Origin: Blastocatellia bacterium
GTDB lineage: Bacteria > Acidobacteriota > Blastocatellia > Chloracidobacteriales > Chloracidobacteriaceae
NCBI GenBank assembly: GCA_019695185.1
Contig: JAIBAN010000001.1
Coordinates: 248,001-312,000, forward strand
Direction: 5' to 3'
Length of the DNA: 64,000 nt
This document shows positions 9,458 through 63,296 of the stretch, piece after piece. The notes beneath the pieces are model-generated. The model made no database searches. It saw nothing but the letters and a program-made list of their open reading frames with translations, and was not told where the DNA came from. Position numbers and translations under genes: made by a program. Numbering within the stretch: position 1 is the stretch's first letter; each line of letters starts with the position of its first letter.

Positions 9458-9600
9458 CAGGGTTCAGGGTTTTAGGGTTCAGGGTTTTAGAGTTCAGGGT
9501 TCAGGGTTTCTAAGTCTTGAGAGTCTTGGGAGTCTTGGGAGTCAAGCAGATTCTCAATTCTCAATTCTCAATTCAAAAAAACCGAACCCTAGACCCTATT
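9458..9600. repeat. Composite short-repeat array (GGGTTCA, CTTGGGAGT, TTCTCAA units)
   Basis: The gap holds, in order, several GGGTTCA units (9458-9508), three CTTGGGAGT-like nonamers (9512-9545), three TTCTCAA heptamers (9551-9575), and GAACCCTAGACCCTA (9584-9599), the reverse complement of the first class. The outer GGGTTC/GAACCC arms are inverted; the inner two blocks are each one-sided. It looks like one array interrupted by pieces of two others. It ends exactly at the stop codon of the DUF5666 gene. Confidence 0.85.
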
Positions 9601-10698: not shown

Positions 10699-10776
10699 GA
10701 ACCACAGAGGCGCACAGGGGCGCACAGAGGAAATTTTCAACCTCGTTGAGAACCTCTGTGCGCCTCTGTGGTTCGA
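10699..10776. repeat. Inverted repeat of CACAGAGG/CGCACAG units
   Basis: Left arm 10699-10731 and right arm 10752-10776 are inverted copies of GAACCACAGAGGCGCACAG..AGG, except that the left arm holds one extra 10-bp unit (GGGCGCACAG). A 20-base spacer separates them. The right arm begins 5 bp past the fabF stop. It follows the same arrangement as the heptamer arrays but with a 10-bp unit. Confidence 0.8.
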
Positions 10777-10778
10777 AA

Positions 10779-12089
10779 TCAGGTTGAGGAATGTGCTTCA
10801 TACCTTTTCACCACCAAGGCCGAGTTTTTCGAGCCAAAAGCAATACAGTTACAAAGGGCGGTGCGAATGATGCCGGAACGTCCCACATTCGGAATGTAAT
10901 CCAAATCACATTCGGGGTCCGGGTTTTCCAGGTTGGCCGTGGGGGGCAGGAACTGATGCTGCATGGCCAGGAGGGTGGCAGCGAGCCCGGCAGCTCCCGA
11001 TGCTCCCTGCGGATGGCCAACCAGGGATTTGGTGGAACTGCACGGAATTTGGTGGGCCTGTTCGCCAAAAGCCATGCGGACGGCTGCCGATTCCACTTTG
11101 TCATTGATGCGGGTGGCCGTCCCATGCAGGTTGATGTAATCAATGTCGGTTGTTTCCAACCCTGCATCATCCAGGGCAATCTGCATGGCACGGGCGGATT
11201 CGATGCCGGTTGGCGCAATCTGGACCCGGTGATAGGCATCACAGGTCGAACCATAGCCAACCACCTCCGCCAGAATCCGGGCCCCACGGCTTTGTGCCCG
11301 TTCCAGTTCCTCAAAGAAAAAAAGATATGCGCCTTCACCGAGCACAAACCCGTCACGGTCGGCATTAAAGGGCCGCGAGGCATGTTCCGGGTCGTGGTTC
11401 CAGCGGGTGGTAACGGTTCCCATCCGACAAAAGGCTGCCATCAGGCCGTAGGTAATGCAGGCTTCGACCCCGCCCGTCACCATGGCTTCCTGGCGGCCCA
11501 GGCGAATGGCATCAAAAGCATATCCCATGGCATCGGTCGAACTGGTGCAGCCGGTTGACACCACATGGCTGGGGCCATAGAGCCGAAACGCCATATTGAT
11601 TTCGCTCGAAACCATGCCGACCAGCGAGGCCACAATTGAATACGGGCTTACCCTTCGGTGGGCCGTATCGGAGTGCTGCCGGAAGAAGGCTTCATACTGG
11701 CGTTCGGCAAACTCGATGCCGCCCGCGCCGGTTCCAACCAACACGCCCCAGGCGCGGCGTTCTTCGTCAGAAATTGTTTCAAAATCAATGCCGGTCATCA
11801 ATGCTGCTTCCCGAACCGCAGCCAATGTCATGGGAACCGCCCGCTGCACCCGGTCCCGGTCTTTGTGGCCAATGCCCTCCGTGAAGGAAAAGTCTTTGAC
11901 TTCAGCCGCAACCCGGCAGGGAAGTCCGGCAGGCTGAAAGAGGGTAATCGGCCCGGTCCCGCTTTTCCCGACAGCCACGGATTCCCAAAAAGCCGGGCAT
12001 CCGATTCCGATGGGGCTGACGACGCCCATTCCGGTGATGACGACCCGACGGAGCTTTTCATTTGCCATTTGCCATTTGCGATCTGCCAT
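10779..12089 (-). CDS. fabF: Beta-ketoacyl-ACP synthase II
   Basis: About 430 residues. RRVVITGMGVVSPIG opens the thiolase-fold domain; the nucleophile cysteine is in VVSTGCTSSTDAMG, the first catalytic His in NLHGTATRINDK and the second in KSLVGHPQGASGAAG. It condenses malonyl-ACP with acyl-ACP in fatty acid elongation. The first residues, MADRKWQMANEK, are read from the GCAAATG heptamer array, which offers ATGs at 12089 and 12068 (and none has a ribosome site). Either may start translation; conserved sequence begins at LRRVV. No acyl carrier gene is adjacent, so a role in a secondary pathway cannot be excluded. Confidence 0.93.
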   Translation of the reverse strand: MADRKWQMANEKLRRVVITGMGVVSPIGIGCPAFWESVAVGKSGTGPITLFQPAGLPCRVAAEVKDFSFTEGIGHKDRDRVQRAVPMTLAAVREAALMTGIDFETISDEERRAWGVLVGTGAGGIEFAERQYEAFFRQHSDTAHRRVSPYSIVASLVGMVSSEINMAFRLYGPSHVVSTGCTSSTDAMGYAFDAIRLGRQEAMVTGGVEACITYGLMAAFCRMGTVTTRWNHDPEHASRPFNADRDGFVLGEGAYLFFFEELERAQSRGARILAEVVGYGSTCDAYHRVQIAPTGIESARAMQIALDDAGLETTDIDYINLHGTATRINDKVESAAVRMAFGEQAHQIPCSSTKSLVGHPQGASGAAGLAATLLAMQHQFLPPTANLENPDPECDLDYIPNVGRSGIIRTALCNCIAFGSKNSALVVKRYEAHSST

Positions 12090-12200
12090 TTTTGATTCCC
12101 GTTTCCATACTTCACTCTATGCTATGAGGCCGGAAAGCCTATGGTAGATGGCAAATGGCAAATGGCAAATGGCAAATGCCCGAAATGACAAATGGCAAAC
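12059..12200. repeat. Inverted heptamer array, GCAAATG class
   Basis: Left arm: three exact CATTTGC units at 12059-12079 plus two degraded ones to 12091. Right arm: four ATGGCAA units at 12148-12175, then further imperfect copies to 12200. The spacer is about 56 bp and lies between the divergent fabF and cytochrome c genes. The left arm is inside the fabF frame and provides its start codon. Confidence 0.9.
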
Positions 12201-16902: not shown

Positions 16903-16910
16903 TACTTTGA

Positions 16911-17035
16911 AGAACTGAGGATTGAGGATTGAGGATTGAGCTGTGTAATCGCGTTTCGAGACCCTTCTGAAAATTCCCGAAACTACGTATTTTCACTCGG
17001 AAGGCTTAAAACTCAGTCCTCAGTCCTCAGTCCTG
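16911..17035. repeat. Inverted heptamer array, GGATTGA / GGACTGA
   Basis: Left arm 16911-16940 is GAACTGA then three GGATTGA; right arm 17010-17035 is three TCAGTCC units (GGACTGA on the other strand). The arms therefore differ by a C/T transition in each repeat unit. Spacer about 70 bp. It fills the gap between convergent serC and the GX3-repeat gene. Confidence 0.88.
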
Positions 17036-17039
17036 GGAA

Positions 17040-33344: not shown

Positions 33345-33350
33345 TCTTTA

Positions 33351-34779
<1,429 letters not shown>

Positions 34780-36675: not shown

Positions 36676-36724
36676 CCGGTTTCAACTTTCCGGCAGGCAG
36701 CCATTGGCGATATGGGGAGAAAAA

Positions 36725-36810
36725 GTCAGAGTTACGCCTTTAGGCGTGAGCTTTCTTTTCTTTATTTTCAAAGAATTACAAGACATCACGCCTAAAGGCG
36801 TAACTCTGAC
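36725..36810. repeat. Long perfect inverted repeat, ACGCCTTTAGGCGT family
   Basis: Arms 36725-36749 and 36786-36810 are perfect 25-bp inverted copies (GTCAGAGTTACGCCTTTAGG...), each with its own ACGCCTTTAGGCGT palindrome. Spacer 36 bp. It is related to the GCCTTCAGGC repeats at 3.1, 40.7 and 43 kb. It lies between divergent genes. Confidence 0.92.
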
Positions 36811-36974
36811 TTCAACTAAACCGAGAATTGCTGAGATGGTAGCGCACGTGGCCACTTTGGCAACAATGCAACCGAATTGTCGGTTGTGAACGGGTCAGTG
36901 TGATAGGTCACAGGCACGTCCGTATATTTTGCCGGTTTCACGAAATTTATACAGAAGGTGAGGATTCACCCGGC

Positions 36975-40690: not shown

Positions 40691-40780
40691 GTTTGGAGTT
40701 CCGCCTTCAGGCGGCAGGATTTTGTTTTGATTGAGAAAAAACGAAGTCAACGGCTGCCGCCTGAAGGCGGAACTCCGAAC
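40691..40780. repeat. Inverted repeat, GCCTTCAGGC family
   Basis: Arms 40691-40717 and 40754-40780 match at 26 of 27 positions (GGAGTTCCGCCTTCAGGCGG core), each with its own palindrome. Spacer 36 bp, the same length as in the 36.7-kb member. It lies between divergent TetR and PQQ dehydrogenase genes. Confidence 0.92.
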
Positions 40781-42965: not shown

Positions 42966-43116
42966 GTTCAGAGTTCCGCCTTCAGGCGGCAGTTTAGAGT
43001 TCCGCCTTCAGGCGGCAGAGTTTGATTTCAGATTGGGGAACAGACTGAAATCACAAACCGCAGCCTAAAGGCTGTACTCCGAACTGCCGCCTGAAGGCGG
43101 AACTCTGAACTGAACC
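42965..43116. repeat. Cluster of GCCTTCAGGC-family repeats
   Basis: Two direct copies (42965-42992 and 42993-43018, core GAGTTCCGCCTTCAGGCGGC), then an inverted divergent copy AGCCTAAAGGCTGTACTCC (43062-43080) and an inverted close copy 43084-43116. The outer arms pair through GGTTCAGAGTTCCGCC. It follows the PQQ gene stop within 3 bp. Confidence 0.9.
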
Positions 43117-52310: not shown

Positions 52311-52433
52311 GGTTTTGAGTTTTGAGTTTTGAGTTTTGTGTCCTGGAACCGCAAGCCTTGTTTCAACAGGTTTGTGCCGGGGACGCCTACATCAAAACTC
52401 AAAACTCAAAATTCAAAATTCAAAATTCAAAAC
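52311..52433. repeat. Inverted heptamer array, TTTTGAG class
   Basis: Left arm 52311-52338 has four TTTTGAG units; right arm 52393-52433 has two ACTCAAA and three ATTCAAA units (TTTTGAG then TTTTGAA). Spacer about 55 bp. It ends one base before the stop codon of the minus-strand TPR gene. Confidence 0.92.
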
Positions 52434-54073: not shown

Positions 54074-55846
54074 ATGAACGAATTACGCAAGTATGTCTTT
54101 GAGTTCGACCAGTTTCGGATTGACCCGGTCAAGCGGCGTCTGCTGCGTGATGGCGCACCGGTTTTGCTCACCCCCAAGACCTTTGACACCTTGATTGCAC
54201 TGGTGCAAAACAGCGGGCGGGTGCTGGGCAAAGACGAGTTGCTCAAGACGGTCTGGCCCGATACGGTCGTCGAGGAAAACAACCTCACCCAAAATATTTC
54301 GGCGCTGCGCAAGGTGTTTAATGACAGCCCGAATGAACATCGGTATATCGCCACCATTCCGGGGCGGGGCTATCGCTTTGTGGCGGATGTGAAGCAACTG
54401 GCGTTTGACCGGTTGGAGCTGTCTCCGGCAGATGAATCAACCCCGGTGGAGCCGCAGCCCGTGCGGCAAAGCCTGGCGGTTTTACCTTTTAAAGTGCTTG
54501 GCAAAGAGGACGCGGATGAGTACCTCCGCGTTGGGCTGGCGGATGCCCTGATTACTCGTTTAAGCAACCTCGAACAAATCACCGTGCGCCCCACGAGCGC
54601 GGTGCTCAAATATGACCTCTGCCCCAAGGACCCGGTGGCAATTGGCCGGGAACTGGGGGTTCATTCCGTCATCGAAGGGAGTTTGCGCAGGGTCGGAGAC
54701 CGGATTCGGGTCACGGTCCAGATGGTTTGCACCTCCGCCGGGGCATCCTGGTGGGCCGATAAATTTGACGAACAGTTCACCAATATTTTTGCAGTGGAAG
54801 ACTCGATTTCCGAACAGGTCGTACAGGCGCTGATGCTCAAGCTGTCAAGCGAAGAAGAAACACAGTTGAGCAAACGCTACACGAACTCGACGCTCGCTTT
54901 TCAGGCTTACCTGATGGGACGGTATTTCTGGTCCAAGCGCACCCGGAACGGATTCGAAAAAGGGATCGAGTATTTTGAACAGGCCATTCGGTATGACCCC
55001 GATTATGCACTGGCCTACGTTGGTTTGGCAGACTGTAATACCTTGCTGGGCGAGTATGGATTGATACCGCCGGGCGAAGCCTTTCCCAGGGCGGAAGCCG
55101 CCGTGCGGCGGGCGCTGCATTTGGACGACAAACTGGCTGAAGCCCACGCCTCGCTTGGGGCCCTGCGGGCTGCCTGTTGGGATTGGACGGGTGCCGAGTT
55201 TCAATTTAAGCGAGCCATTCAGCTTAATCCCAACTACCCCACTGTTCGTCAGTGGTATGCGGAATTTCTCACCGCCATGCGGCGGTTTGAAGAGGCATTT
55301 GAGCAAATCAACCATGTTCTGACGGTTGACCCGCTCTGTTTAACCAACAAAACCTGTGAAGCCTGGATTTTCTTTCATACCCGTCGGTATGCAGAAGCCC
55401 TCACGCGCATTCAGTCCGTGATTGCGATGGATCCTGAATTTGCCCCGGCCCGCTTGTGCTCGGCGGCAATTTACGAACAGCTTGGCCGGTATCCGGAGGC
55501 CCTGGATGAGCTGAAGCGGGTTCAGAACTGTTCCGGGCTGGTCTGTGGATATATGAGTTGCCGCATCAGTGTCGGGTATACCTATGCCTTGGCAGGGCAA
55601 CCGGACGAAGCCCGCCGGTTGTTGGCCAAGCTGCAAACCCTGGCAGCCACCCAATATGTCCAACCCACCGACTTTGCCATGATTCATGCCGGTTTGGGGG
55701 AGGCCGACCAGATGTTTCACTGGCTGAACCAGGCCTATGAAAAACAGGCTGAGTGGTTTTACTGGTTGCAGGTTGACCCCAGAATGGACCGCTACCGCTC
55801 GGACCCCCGATTCAGTGATTTGTTGGAGCGGTTGGACCTGATGTAG
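54074..55846 (+). CDS. Winged-helix regulator with TolB-like and TPR regions
   Basis: 590 residues. Residues 5-105 are an OmpR-type winged helix ([50 protein letters not shown]). Residues about 135-270 match the TolB-like/adenylate-cyclase-associated region ([39 protein letters not shown]). TPR repeats fill the remainder. There is no membrane helix, so unlike CadC it should be cytoplasmic. This architecture is abundant in Acidobacteriota; ligands and targets are unknown. AAGGGG lies just before the ATG. Confidence 0.85.
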
Positions 55847-55857
55847 CTGGGGTGGGG

Positions 55858-56000
55858 GCTAGGGGTTCGGGTCTAGGGTCCAGGGTTCAGGGTATCAAGA
55901 CAATGTACCGGATAAAGTTTCACTAACAAGAACCTGGATGGAAACAGAGTCAGGTAGGGTTGTAGAAACCCTGAACCCTGGACCCTAGACCCTGAACCCT
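55858..56000. repeat. Inverted mixed heptamer array (GGGTTCA, GGGTCTA, GGGTCCA)
   Basis: Left arm 55858-55893 reads GGGTTCG-GGTCTA-GGGTCCA-GGGTTCA-GGG. The right arm 55967-56000, read on the other strand, gives GGGTTCA-GGGTCTA-GGGTCCA-GGGTTCA-GGG. The variant units are in the same order in both arms. Spacer about 73 bp, between two plus-strand genes. Confidence 0.95.
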
Positions 56001-56022
56001 GTTCTTGCCACCGAGGTACCTT

Positions 56023-56514
56023 ATGGATGCTCTCTTTTTTGTGGGAACACTTGCCGTTATGGCTTTGTTGGCCTGGCATGAGTTGAACGTGTACACAAGA
56101 CTGAAACTGCAAAAAAAAGATTCTCAGCCGGTTCGGGCCCGGCTTGGTCGTCGGTTACTGGGCTTGGTTGTTTTATTTGTGGTGGTGACGATGACCTACG
56201 TAGGGGTTCGCAATCTTCGCTCGTTTCCTTCCCCTTCTACCTTTATTACTTACTGGACAATTTGCTTTTTTTTATTGGTTTTTTTAATGGTGTTGGTGGT
56301 TTTTGATTTACGGGCGGTTTATAAACAAGTTCTTCGTTCAATGATTGACGAAGCGGCAGAAGAACGGCGGTTTCAGGAGTTTTTGGAACGGCAGGTTCGC
56401 CTTGAAGCCCGGAAACAACAAAAATCAGCGGGAACACCTCCGGAAAAATTGGGGAACCTTCATCCAGCCCAAGAGTCAAGGGGACAAAGCAACAAGACGG
56501 GCCGCAGTTCGTAA
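56023..56514 (+). CDS. Small membrane protein of unknown function
   Basis: 163 residues with three membrane helices (about 1-18, 45-62 and 75-95: LLGLVVLFVVVTMTYVG, TYWTICFFLLVFLMVLVVF), then a charged cytoplasmic helix (EAAEERRFQEFLERQVRLEARKQQ) and a polar tail. GAGGT lies 6 bases before the ATG. The Ser/Thr kinase gene starts 53 bp downstream, so they probably share a transcript. No family recognised. Confidence 0.7.
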   Translation: MDALFFVGTLAVMALLAWHELNVYTRLKLQKKDSQPVRARLGRRLLGLVVLFVVVTMTYVGVRNLRSFPSPSTFITYWTICFFLLVFLMVLVVFDLRAVYKQVLRSMIDEAAEERRFQEFLERQVRLEARKQQKSAGTPPEKLGNLHPAQESRGQSNKTGRSS

Positions 56515-56567
56515 TCGGTTGTCTTGTGCCGGAGGTTTTCCCATAGATTCTTTCATCTGGATCCATT

Positions 56568-58706
56568 ATGAAAATTTGCCCTGCCTGTAGTACCCAATTT
56601 GACGATACCATGCTTTCCTGTCCGCGCTGTCAGGCTGCGCTTGCTTCGGCGCAAACCATTCCCGGCACGGAACAAATACCTGGAGTTATGCAAAATACAG
56701 ATCAATTAATTGGACAACTGGTTGATGGACGGTTTCAGATTCTCAGTAAACTCGGTGAAGGCGGCATGGGTGCCGTTTTCAAGGCCGAACATACGAAAAT
56801 GAATCGGCTTTGTGCCATTAAGATTATGAGTGCTTCCATTGCGGGCGATAAAGACTCCTATGCCCGCTTCATTCGGGAAGCACAGATGTCGAGCAAACTT
56901 GACCACCCACATGCGGTGATGATTTATGATTTTGGCGAAACCGAAAACGGTTTGGTTTATCTGGCGATGGAATATGTTGAGGGGGAAATGCTCTCGACCT
57001 TGCTGCGGCGTGAAGGAGCGCTGCCGATTGACCGGGTTTTGTTTCTGGCCCGGCAGGCTGGTTCTGCTCTGGAAGCTGCCCATAAATTGAGCATCATTCA
57101 CCGCGACCTCAAACCCGATAACATCATGATTGGCAAAAAGGATGGGCGGGATTGGGTGAAAGTGCTGGATTTCGGAATTGCCAAAGTCGCCACCGAAGAC
57201 CAGCGTCACGATTTGACGGCTGCCGGAATGGTCATCGGGACACCGCTTTATATGTCTCCCGAACAGTTGGCCGGGGAAAAACTTGACGCCCGTTCCGACA
57301 TCTACAGTTTTGCTCTGATTATCTATCAAATGTTGACGGGGGTTTTGCCATTTCAGGGGGAAAACACCCAGGCCATCATGGTCAAACGGTTGACGGAAAA
57401 TCCCATGCCCATCCGGTTTGCCAACCCCAACGTGCGGATTCCCGAAGATATGGAAGCTGCTCTGTTGCAAGCGCTGGCCCGTGACCGGAATCATCGCCCG
57501 CAAAACATGACTGCGTTGCTGACCATGTTGGAAAGTGGTGCTGCCCAAACCGGCCAAGTGGCTCCGGGCGGAGCGGTCAACCCAACTCTGAGGCCGATGG
57601 CCCCTGGCGGGACCAATCCATTTCCACCGGCAGCCTCCTATCAAACCGCCGGCAACGCTCCGGTCAGCACCGGTCAGCCTTCCCAGCGTGGACCGGCCAC
57701 TCCGGGACAGTTTGCCCCGCCACCCACCGTTGCGGCACCAATGGCAAATACCCCCGGTCAACCCATGCCGCCGATGCCTGGAGGGAATTTCCCACCTGGA
57801 CAGCCGCCCATGCAACCGGGATTTCAGCCTCAACCCCAACGTCCGCCCATGGGTGGACCAGGGATGCCGCCCATGGGTGGGCCGGGCATGGCACCGGCTG
57901 CCGGACCGGGAACCAAACCGATGGGCGGACCGGGGATGCCTCCGCCCCCGATGCCTAATCAACCTCCGGCTAAGAAAGGCGGCGGGTTGGGAATTGTGAT
58001 TGCCCTGGTCCTGGTGTTGATTGTTCTGGGCGGGGGGGGGTTGGTGGTTCTTGGCATTATGGCAACCAAATCCAAAACGGAGCCGGTGGTAACGGAGAAC
58101 CCACCTGATACCAAGCCGGAGAAAAACACCAAAACCGATAAAACTGAAAAACCAGAGACGGACAAACCGGTTGCAAATTCTTCTGGCCCGAGTGCCGAAG
58201 CGCAGGCTGCCTATGATGATGGCGTGGCACTCATGCAGAAAAAACAATACCGGGATGCAGAAAAAAAATTCCGGGAAGCTGTCGCGTTTGACCCCAATTA
58301 TGCGGATGCCCATTACAACCTCGGGGTGGCACTGTTTAACAATTACAAGCTGGCGGATTCGGTCGAGGAACTCAAACAGGCGGTTCGCCTGAGCGACAAC
58401 GATGACCGGAAATTCAAAGCCTACTATGCCCGTGGTTTGGCCAACTGGGAATTGAAACGCTATGACCAGGCAGAAGAGGACTTTGCCCAAGCCTCCAAAC
58501 ACAAATCCGACAACCAGGAGGTACTGGCCTATCGCGGTTTTGTGTTGCAACTGGCAGGGCGTCAATCCGAAGCCAATCAGGTGTATGATGACTTTTTGGC
58601 AAAAAACAGTATCGGGACACTGACCGATATGGTCAAACAATGCCGGGACGGTTCGGCTGTTCCACCTAAAACTTTGAAAGAAGGTGGGTTTAATCCTTTG
58701 GAATAA
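56568..58706 (+). CDS. Membrane Ser/Thr protein kinase with zinc ribbon and TPR domain
   Basis: 712 residues. N-terminal C-x2-C...C-x2-C zinc ribbon (CPACS, CPRCQ; 4-21). Kinase domain about 54-320: GEGGMGAVFKAEH, K85 in LCAIKI, D180 in IIHRDLKPDN, D201 in DFGIAKV, GTPLYMSPEQ. A Pro/Gly/Met-rich linker (about 325-460), one membrane helix (GLGIVIALVLVLIVLGGGGL) and an outer TPR region (about 540-690) follow. It is a PknB-like receptor kinase; the outer TPRs may sense a partner. Long antisense frames reflect its base composition and are not genes. Confidence 0.92.
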   Translation: MKICPACSTQFDDTMLSCPRCQAALASAQTIPGTEQIPGVMQNTDQLIGQLVDGRFQILSKLGEGGMGAVFKAEHTKMNRLCAIKIMSASIAGDKDSYARFIREAQMSSKLDHPHAVMIYDFGETENGLVYLAMEYVEGEMLSTLLRREGALPIDRVLFLARQAGSALEAAHKLSIIHRDLKPDNIMIGKKDGRDWVKVLDFGIAKVATEDQRHDLTAAGMVIGTPLYMSPEQLAGEKLDARSDIYSFALIIYQMLTGVLPFQGENTQAIMVKRLTENPMPIRFANPNVRIPEDMEAALLQALARDRNHRPQNMTALLTMLESGAAQTGQVAPGGAVNPTLRPMAPGGTNPFPPAASYQTAGNAPVSTGQPSQRGPATPGQFAPPPTVAAPMANTPGQPMPPMPGGNFPPGQPPMQPGFQPQPQRPPMGGPGMPPMGGPGMAPAAGPGTKPMGGPGMPPPPMPNQPPAKKGGGLGIVIALVLVLIVLGGGGLVVLGIMATKSKTEPVVTENPPDTKPEKNTKTDKTEKPETDKPVANSSGPSAEAQAAYDDGVALMQKKQYRDAEKKFREAVAFDPNYADAHYNLGVALFNNYKLADSVEELKQAVRLSDNDDRKFKAYYARGLANWELKRYDQAEEDFAQASKHKSDNQEVLAYRGFVLQLAGRQSEANQVYDDFLAKNSIGTLTDMVKQCRDGSAVPPKTLKEGGFNPLE

Positions 58707-58826
58707 AGTCTTGGGGGGCTTGGGGGCTTGGGAGTCTTGAGCGTCAAAATCCTGATAAGGTAACAGACAGCACTGTGACAGGGAGACTCCCAAGACTCCC
58801 AAGCCCCAAGACCCCCAAGACTTTTG
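58705..58826. repeat. Inverted array, CTTGGGAGT/CTTGGGG units
   Basis: Left arm 58705-58741, right arm 58780-58826, spacer about 38 bp, between the kinase and PyrC genes. Units are 7-9 bp. Read on one strand, both arms run CTTGGGG(G), CTTGGGG(G), CTTGGGAGT, CTTGRG in the same order, differing by small indels. The right arm ends 6 bases before the PyrC start. Confidence 0.92.
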
Positions 58827-58832
58827 AATCTT

Positions 58833-60107
58833 ATGTCCTCACTTTTCATTCGTAACGGTCGTTTGATGGACCCGGCGCAAAATCTTGATTCGCCGGGTCA
58901 TTTGTTGATTGAGCAGGGGAAAATTGCTGCCTGGGGGCCGGATGTAGTTGCTCCCGCAGATGTTACGGTCTTTGATGCGACCGGATTGGTGGTTGCGCCC
59001 GGTTTTATTGACCTCCATGTGCATTTGCGCGAACCGGGACAAACCCACAAGGAAACCATTGCCACCGGCACTGCCGCTGCTGCTGCGGGAGGGTTCACTG
59101 CCGTGTGTTGTATGCCCAACACCGCACCGGTTAATGACTCGCCCCTGGTGACCCGGTTTATTTTGGACCGGGTAAAAGAATCAGCCTCCGTGCGGGTCTA
59201 TCCGATTGGTGCCATCACCAAGGGGTTGCAGGGCGAGGTTTTGGCCGAAATTGGCGGAATGCGCGAGGTCGGGATTGTGGCCATTTCCGATGACGGTCAC
59301 TCGGTTTCCAATGCTCAGGTGATGCGGCGGGCCATGGAATATGCCCGTGATTTCAACCTTCCGGTAACTGACCATTGTGAAAACAAGGATTTGGCTGCCG
59401 GAGGAATCATGAACGAAGGGCTTTACTCGACTTTGCTGGGTTTGCGGGGCATGACCCGTGCCGCAGAGGAGGTTGATGTGGCCCGTGATATTGTGCTTTC
59501 GGAATTGACCGGTGCGCATGTTCATATTGCCCACCTCAGCACCGCCGGGTCGGTTGAAATGGTTCGCTGGGCGCAATCACGAGGAGTCCGGATTACCTGC
59601 GAAGTTACCCCGCATCATTTCAGCCTGACCGAAGCCGCCACTGATGGGTTCAATACCAATGCCAAGATGAATCCGCCGCTCCGCACCGAACGCGATGTGG
59701 CCGCATTGCTTGAAGCGCTGGCCGATGGCACGGTGGGGGCCATTGCAACGGACCATGCACCACATTGTGGTACGGAAAAAGACCAGGATTTTGAAAATGC
59801 CCCGTTTGGCATTTTGGGCCTCGAATCAGCTCTCAGCCTGGCTTTGGACCGGCTTTACCATTCCCGCAAGGTTGGCTTGATGCGGCTGGTTGAGTTGTTT
59901 TCAACCGGCCCGGCCCGGCTGTTTAACCTCCCTGGCGGCTCGCTCAAAGTTGGGGAGCCGGGAGATGTGACCATCTTCGACCTGGAAAAGCCGGTTACGC
60001 TCAAGGTTTCCGAATGGCGTTCCAAAAGTCGGAATTCTCCTTTTGAGGGCTGGGAATTGAAGGGCGGTCCGGTGGCTACAGTGGTGGGCGGGGTGAGGGT
60101 TTTTTGA
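58833..60107 (+). CDS. pyrC: Dihydroorotase
   Basis: 424 residues. H62-x-H64 in GFIDLHVHLREPG, the TDHCENKDL and CEVTPHHFSLTE histidines and the late TDHAPH aspartate are the metal ligands and catalytic residues of type I dihydroorotase, which closes carbamoyl-aspartate to dihydroorotate in pyrimidine synthesis. The ATG at 58833 opens MSSLFIRNGRLMDP, the family start; there is no ribosome site because the array fills the space. No pyrB is adjacent. It converges on the zinc-ribbon gene. Confidence 0.95.
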   Translation: MSSLFIRNGRLMDPAQNLDSPGHLLIEQGKIAAWGPDVVAPADVTVFDATGLVVAPGFIDLHVHLREPGQTHKETIATGTAAAAAGGFTAVCCMPNTAPVNDSPLVTRFILDRVKESASVRVYPIGAITKGLQGEVLAEIGGMREVGIVAISDDGHSVSNAQVMRRAMEYARDFNLPVTDHCENKDLAAGGIMNEGLYSTLLGLRGMTRAAEEVDVARDIVLSELTGAHVHIAHLSTAGSVEMVRWAQSRGVRITCEVTPHHFSLTEAATDGFNTNAKMNPPLRTERDVAALLEALADGTVGAIATDHAPHCGTEKDQDFENAPFGILGLESALSLALDRLYHSRKVGLMRLVELFSTGPARLFNLPGGSLKVGEPGDVTIFDLEKPVTLKVSEWRSKSRNSPFEGWELKGGPVATVVGGVRVF

Positions 60108-62074: not shown

Positions 62075-63181
62075 ATGGAACCCTTCATTATTTTTTTGCT
62101 CATCATTGCCATCATCGGCGTGCTTTCAATTTTGAAGATGTCAATCCGGATTGTGCCGCAAATGAGCGTGCTCATCATTGAGCGACTGGGCTCCTTTGCC
62201 AAGATTGCCGACAGCGGATTGCATTTTATTGTTCCGTTTTTCGAAGCTCCCCGTGCGGTTTACTGGACGGGCGTCCGTCCGGGAACGACCTTGATTGAAC
62301 TCCGGGAGCAGTTTACGGACCTTCCCATGCAACCCTGTATCACCCGCGACAATGTGACGGTCGGGGTTGACTCGGTGATTTACTGGCAGATTACCGACCC
62401 CAAGCGGGCACTCTATGAAGTGGCCGATTTAACCGGGGGCATCATGCAGTTGACCACGACTTCATTGCGCAGTGTGATGGGTGAAATGGACCTTGACCAT
62501 ACGCTTTCCTCCCGCGATACCATCAACAGCAAATTACGTCTGGTTTTGGATGAAGCCACTCATAAGTGGGGCGTCAAGGTCACACGGGTGGAAGTTCGCA
62601 ACATCAACCCGCCGGAAGATGTCCGGATTACCATGGAAAAACAAATGACCGCCGAACGGAACCGGCGTGCTCTGGTCTTGCAAGCCGAAGGCGAAAAACA
62701 GGCGGCGATTGCCCGTGCCGAAGGTGAAAAGCAGGCTGCCATCACCCGTGCCGAAGGGGACAAGCAAATGCAAATCCTGCGGGCTGAGGGTGCGGCTGAG
62801 GCCCGGTTGCGTGCCATTGAAGCAGAGTCGGTGGCCATCCAAAATATTTCCGCCGCGCTGGGCGGGCAGGGCAATCCGGCCAATTATCTGATAATGGGGC
62901 GTTATATCGAGTCGCTCCGGGATATGTCGCTGGGCCAAAACAGCAAAGTTGTCTTTATGCCGGTGGAAAGCTCAAACGTGCTGGCTTCCATTGGGACCTT
63001 CAAAGAAATGTTTGCCGAAACCGGCCAGACGGCGCAAAATTCACAAACTCCAGCCCAATCACAAGCGGCTGACGTTCGCATTCCGATTACACCCCAAATC
63101 ACTGCCCAACTGGCTCCGCAGGTGCGCTCCACCCGCGAACTGGTTCCAACCGGAAAGTTGCGGGCGGATGATTTGAAATAA
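62075..63181 (+). CDS. SPFH/stomatin-like slipin (paraslipin type)
   Basis: 368 residues: one N-terminal membrane helix (PFIIFLLIIAIIGVLSIL), the SPFH domain (VLIIERLGSFAKIADSGLHF, TRDNVTVGVDSVIYWQITDP), a helical region with repeated AEGEKQAAIARAEGEKQAA units (about 210-250), and a Gln/Pro-rich tail. It would form oligomers organising membrane domains with NfeD, encoded just upstream. The ATG at 62075 begins the membrane helix; upstream is array DNA. Confidence 0.93.
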   Translation: MEPFIIFLLIIAIIGVLSILKMSIRIVPQMSVLIIERLGSFAKIADSGLHFIVPFFEAPRAVYWTGVRPGTTLIELREQFTDLPMQPCITRDNVTVGVDSVIYWQITDPKRALYEVADLTGGIMQLTTTSLRSVMGEMDLDHTLSSRDTINSKLRLVLDEATHKWGVKVTRVEVRNINPPEDVRITMEKQMTAERNRRALVLQAEGEKQAAIARAEGEKQAAITRAEGDKQMQILRAEGAAEARLRAIEAESVAIQNISAALGGQGNPANYLIMGRYIESLRDMSLGQNSKVVFMPVESSNVLASIGTFKEMFAETGQTAQNSQTPAQSQAADVRIPITPQITAQLAPQVRSTRELVPTGKLRADDLK

Positions 63182-63296
63182 TTGAGAATTGAGAATTGAG
63201 AATTGAGAATTTTTCAAAATCAGGACAACAGAAGTAAACTCACAAGAAGCAACTCGTTGGATTTCTTCAATTCTCAATTCTCAATTCTCAATTCCC
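63177..63296. repeat. Inverted heptamer array, GAATTGA class
   Basis: Left arm 63177-63210, four GAATTGA units fused to the slipin TAA stop (TAATTGAGAATTGAG); right arm 63265-63296, four TTCTCAA units; spacer about 54 bp with no obvious similarity to other spacers. The GGAGG ribosome site of the next gene follows at once. Confidence 0.95.

Follow-up and report, generated by a model that had tools for sequence, protein, structure and literature searches.

Inward-facing hairpins of short tandem repeats at gene ends in a Blastocatellia bacterium genome

Introduction

Rehm et al. (2015) described GGGAATC and GGGGAYT heptamer repeats in Xanthomonas and Nostoc and linked them to G-quadruplexes (PMC4692102). 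Two Xanthomonas genomes carry 70 and 75 convergent inverted pairs of such repeats (PMC4692102). Of the Xanthomonas repeats, 83% are conserved from one species to the other, but these species are more closely related than the two genomes compared below (PMC4692102). These paired GGGAATC repeats are the closest precedent for the elements analyzed here, which are likewise arrays of about four tandem 7-nt units, form convergent inverted pairs, are found close to stop codons when on the sense strand and close to start codons when on the antisense strand, and are under-represented between divergent genes. Unlike the Xanthomonas repeats, they comprise several unit families per genome, some of which are unable to form quadruplexes, their copy number is far higher, and their unit families differ at most of the orthologous boundaries that are occupied in both genomes.

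REP elements and REPINs form a second related class (Bertels and Rainey, 2011, PMC3116915; RepRanger, 2025, PMC12306157). Some REPs are no more than 15 nt away from a stop codon and are able to cause ribosome stalling (PMC12306157). Our hairpins resemble REPINs as inverted doublets that pair across a spacer and are extragenic, dispersed, and present in high copy number. They differ, however, in that their arms are tandem 7-mers instead of single palindromes, that spacers are not conserved in four of six families, and that the number of Y1 transposases in a genome does not follow its hairpin content. The TAACTGA repeats of Beggiatoaceae are also intergenic heptamer arrays with a fixed orientation relative to genes, and they too occur in distant phyla, but they are direct repeats upstream of start codons with only one inverted case (MacGregor, 2015, PMC4679880). 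The octa- and heptanucleotide sites of Geobacter metallireducens share short tandem units, pairs on opposite strands, a variable distance between partners, and many copies; in contrast, they number in the tens, have other sequences, and were read as regulator binding sites (PMC2700814). A literature search by unit sequence gave no match.

Results and Discussion

The window analyzed is a stretch of 64,000 nucleotides from the genome of a Blastocatellia bacterium, hereafter G000, and contains about 20 hairpins, one of which was picked out for closer study. It follows a plus-strand gene (54074-55846) whose TAG stop codon occupies positions 55844-55846. After 16 bases, that is 17 nt on, the left arm begins on the plus strand (55863-55893) with the units GGGTTCG (55863-55869), GGTCTA (55870-55875, 6 nt), GGGTCCA (55876-55882), and GGGTTCA (55883-55889), and it ends with GGGT at 55893. 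A sequence-only reading had named these units correctly and placed the start of the arm at 55858 instead of 55863. A spacer of about 70 bp (55894-55966) without homology to the remaining GGGTTCA spacers separates it from the right arm on the minus strand (55967-56001), the reverse complement of which reads GGGTTCA-GGGTCTA-GGGTCCA-GGGTTCA-GGGTTTC. According to a simple gene caller, the ATG of the downstream plus-strand gene (56023-56514) starts 22 nt past the right arm. RNA folding of positions 55840-56023 yielded -103 kcal/mol (z = -8.9), and a search of positions 55000-59500 against Rfam returned no family above the gathering score.

To place this locus in context, we sampled approximately 1.15 Mb of the 8.33-Mb genome, part of it picked from contigs listed for GGGTTCA matches. 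The sample contained 185 hairpins, which scale up to about 1,300 for the genome. They belong to the AGGACTG (49), AATTGAG (41), GGGTTCA (40), AGTCTTGGG (20), TTTTGAG (19), and ATTTGCS (16) families; the units of the AGTCTTGGG family, hereafter the 9-mer family, are 9 nt long and those of the others 7 nt. A typical hairpin consists of two facing arrays of about four units each around a spacer of near 65 bp (quartiles 53-80). Four units are the modal arm length for AGGACTG, ATTTGCS, TTTTGAG, and the 9-mer, and are common in GGGTTCA. Further examples in the window are a 9-mer hairpin that the sequence-only reading had also named (left arm 58705-58745, plus strand; right arm 58785-58824, minus strand), an ATTTGCC/ATTTGCG hairpin (12059-12199), and a TTTTGAG hairpin (52312-52433). 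At 9459-9590, one gap holds three families: GGGTTC arms are outermost, the inner array on the left is AGTCTTGGG, and the inner one on the right is AATTGAG. At 16903-17039, the left arm reads AGGATTG and the right arm AGGACTG, so that the arms of a single locus have drifted apart.

All 185 hairpins point inward and none outward. The AGGACTG pattern gave 237 inward and 0 outward matches, several of which are possible per hairpin. Across 20 genomes, GGGTTCA hairpins were inward in 137 cases and outward in none; most of these genomes were taken from a scan with exact patterns, which had been chosen for its inward pairs, whereas no such choice had been made with regard to outward pairs. Arrays detected de novo run from the edge of a gene toward the intergenic region rather than the opposite way at ratios of 246:3 in G000, 141:4 in G003, a relative from another genus that is the richest in such arrays, and 21:1 in G021. 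Single arrays obey the same orientation rule (59:4 at stops and 26:1 at starts). With gene ends taken from a purpose-written simple caller, the median distance between arm and stop codon was 3-5 bp for AGGACTG, GGGTTCA, ATTTGCS, and the 9-mer, -2 bp for AATTGAG, and 8 bp for TTTTGAG. Read inward, the arms of the GGGTTCA, ATTTGCS, and 9-mer families contain no stop codon and thus are not the source of the stops. Of 43 hairpins between convergent genes, 27 had both arms near both stop codons, and hairpins were rarer between divergent genes (13/177 vs. 115/688). Hairpin ends were followed by at least five T in eight positions in 17.8% of cases, compared to 8.9% of random intergenic positions. Since T-tracts follow only a minority of hairpins, most are probably not classical intrinsic terminators.

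GGGTTCA hairpins turned up across many phyla in the exact-pattern scan; they are always inward and are present in Planctomycetes, Gammaproteobacteria, Cyanobacteria, Verrucomicrobia, and further groups, and the polarity rule is therefore not local to this organism. A search of 296 other genomes of the phylum with exact AGGACTG patterns, which would miss degenerate copies, detected no hairpin of this family. At least this unit family looks private to the genome, and it is probably young because its sequence is near-perfect. G000 and G003 both have arrays at nine orthologous boundaries, and the units differ at eight of them. The AGGACTG hairpin at 33350-33484, for example, corresponds to an AGTCAGT hairpin with the same short flanks in G003, whereas the orthologous gap of the AATTGAG hairpin at 63180-63294, which has the same architecture, holds no array. 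In a first, smaller count, seven boundaries were occupied in both genomes, four in G000 only, none in G003 only, and eight in neither, and co-occupancy appeared strongly conserved. In the larger but still small sample (9, 9, 2, and 5, respectively), co-occupancy did not clearly exceed chance. G021 and G029, considered as a possible close pair for tracing joint changes, proved too distant, with little conserved gene order and a DNA identity of about 74% in the most similar stretch.

Taken together, we tentatively propose, at slightly below an even chance, that the hairpins are REP-like stem-loops at transcript ends that would be maintained at gene boundaries, with unit families that amplify within a lineage and arms that slip independently. 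The observed part of this proposal comprises the architecture, the fixed polarity, the anchoring at stop codons, the independent arm lengths, the same unit family on both sides, and the existence of several families. We infer a boundary function from the position, the symmetry, the rarity between divergent genes, and the twofold enrichment of T-rich tails. Once transcribed, a hairpin would affect the 3' ends of RNAs in both directions in the fashion of a REP element; it might stabilize the transcript, end it, or influence ribosomes that have reached the stop codon. Unit families would arise anew, amplify inside a lineage, and take over boundaries, and each arm would then lengthen or shorten separately by slippage. 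Counting against the proposal, unequal arm lengths and 15 mixed-family loci among 168 show that exact pairing is not strictly maintained. The question raised by about 1,300 one-polarity hairpins at stop codons is what keeps architecture, position, and direction while the sequence changes between genomes.

The sequence-only reading had started from the order of variant units in the two arms of the GGGTTCA hairpin at 55863-56001. Direct reading bears this observation out: the order is identical, and the arms are one substitution and one deleted base apart. Under the proposed REP-like stem-loop, the match would be left over from the founding of both arms together, stem from an infrequent conversion, or be due to chance, and would not signal general copying. 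There is about an even chance that it is coincidental, in arms that draw on a small set of common variants (GGGTCCA, GGGTCTA, GGGTTTA); this reading bears on nothing but the order match and can stand alongside the proposed stem-loop. Among 186 GGGTTCA-type arms from the 1.15 Mb, the best match to the left arm was its own right arm with a score of 56, and two unrelated loci reached 55; the agreement exceeds that of a typical pair, but by a narrow margin. Comparing order agreement within and between loci, as the sequence-only reading had suggested, gave a divided answer in the sampled 1.15 Mb. In the GGGTTCA family it was at chance, with 25 variant sites common to both arms of a locus and 25.0 ± 3.9 after partners were shuffled inside the family. 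The total over six families was above expectation (63 vs. 38.9 ± 5.5), an excess that comes from the 9-mer, TTTTGAG, and ATTTGCS subfamilies. Against coincidence, the exact 24-mer GGTCTAGGGTCCAGGGTTCAGGGT occurs only four times in the 8.33-Mb genome, and two of these copies are the arms of this locus.

A strong rival to the proposed stem-loop is a selfish miniature element, in which the hairpin or its arms spread in a transposition-like manner and prefer stop-proximal sites without any host function. We regard this as a serious possibility, though probably not the correct one; much of the same pattern could come from a purely selfish element limited to safe sites. High copy number and dispersal fit such an element, as does the lack of exact AGGACTG matches in the 296 other genomes of the phylum. 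Spacers are homologous in 30 of 40 GGGTTCA and 14 of 20 9-mer hairpins and almost never in the other four families. Judged by these spacers, spread of the whole hairpin as a unit, which the sequence-only reading had offered as an option, appears to hold for the two families, but the hairpin that prompted it has a spacer outside the homologous group. In the AGGACTG and AATTGAG families, whose hairpins are near-perfect, spacers are mutually unrelated, indicating that the spacer was not carried along and, for AGGACTG, arguing against insertion of a complete element. The flanks revealed no clear target-site duplication (z at most about 2 compared to shuffled flanks). Y1_Tnp is present in 47 of 58 genomes, and across these 58 its counts showed no association with hairpin content. 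The empty orthologous gaps of G003 are mixed: those of -4, -4, and 9 bp are tight and fit insertion, whereas those of 62, 65, and 81 bp are nearer to the spacer length than to the residue outside the hairpin and fit arms placed around existing DNA. The intergenic DNA of G003 at orthologous boundaries is strongly diverged from the spacers of G000.

Less probable, and in our view unlikely, is an active process that writes lineage-private arrays inward onto both intergenic edges, without the intervening DNA, and replaces older, different arrays. The AGGACTG family, with its seemingly private occurrence, near-perfect units, and unrelated spacers, points in this direction.

The sequence-only reading had also suggested that one arm is rewritten with its partner as the template, through template switching or through repair templated by the hairpin. 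Such quasi-palindrome correction is a known mutational process (PMC8794818), and two counts are consistent with it. Within the GGGTTCA family, 18-mers with at least three variants common to both arms occurred at 3 of 44 loci, among them the one at 55863-56001 (0.67 expected, p = 0.02), and a k-mer test that included 7-nt flanks gave a small excess (15 loci vs. 7.8, p = 0.005). With arms only, 18-mers with at least two common variants were not in significant excess (9 vs. 7.4, p = 0.28). In none of the six families did the unit number of the left arm correlate with that of the right arm (r between -0.08 and 0.11), and mean complementarity of the outer flanks was no higher than in shuffled pairs (2.40 vs. 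2.42 of 8 nt). Thus, the arms mostly change independently. Apart from the weak excess of order agreement at a few loci, including this one, arms agree neither in length, nor in order, nor into the flanks, and copying between arms is rare at most. As a general process, arm rewriting is already mostly refuted, has left little trace here, and appears improbable. The arms are coupled at the family level only: the unit family is identical on both sides at 153 of 168 loci (37 expected), reflecting a joint origin of the unit family on the two sides.

A role as G-quadruplex elements, as proposed for the GGGAATC and GGGGAYT repeats, would suit the G-triplets of the GGGTTCA arms and the common arm length of four units (PMC4692102), and quadruplexes are possible by sequence for GGGTTCA and the 9-mer, but we consider it very improbable, since AATTGAG, ATTTGCS, and TTTTGAG lack G-triplets, AGGACTG has G-pairs only, and these families share the same architecture and polarity and in three cases (AGGACTG, ATTTGCS, TTTTGAG) the four-unit mode, so that quadruplexes are not the common cause and the quadruplex account is weakened as a general one.

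Several further repeats were observed. In G000, G003, and G021, nearly all units contain more G than C on the strand that runs from the gene edge toward the gap, with ATTTGCC as the exception. The GGGTTCA and 9-mer spacers of G000 and the GGGTTCA spacers of G003 often carry additional short repeats (TTGTCAC, TTGTCCA, AAAAGGACRW), as if hairpins were nested or the spacers themselves built from repeats. Hairpins with longer units, about 26 nt around GTTCCGCCTTCAGGCGGC, lie in the window at 42966-43110, 40695-40776, and 36723-36812, and similar sequences occur in G021. A ACCACAGAGGCGCACAGAGG-type hairpin is located at 10699-10774, and loosely similar strings (CTCACGCAGAGACGC, TCTCACGCAAAGGCGC, and AACCGCAGATGAACGC) form hairpins at Wenzhouxiangella and Lacipirellula loci.
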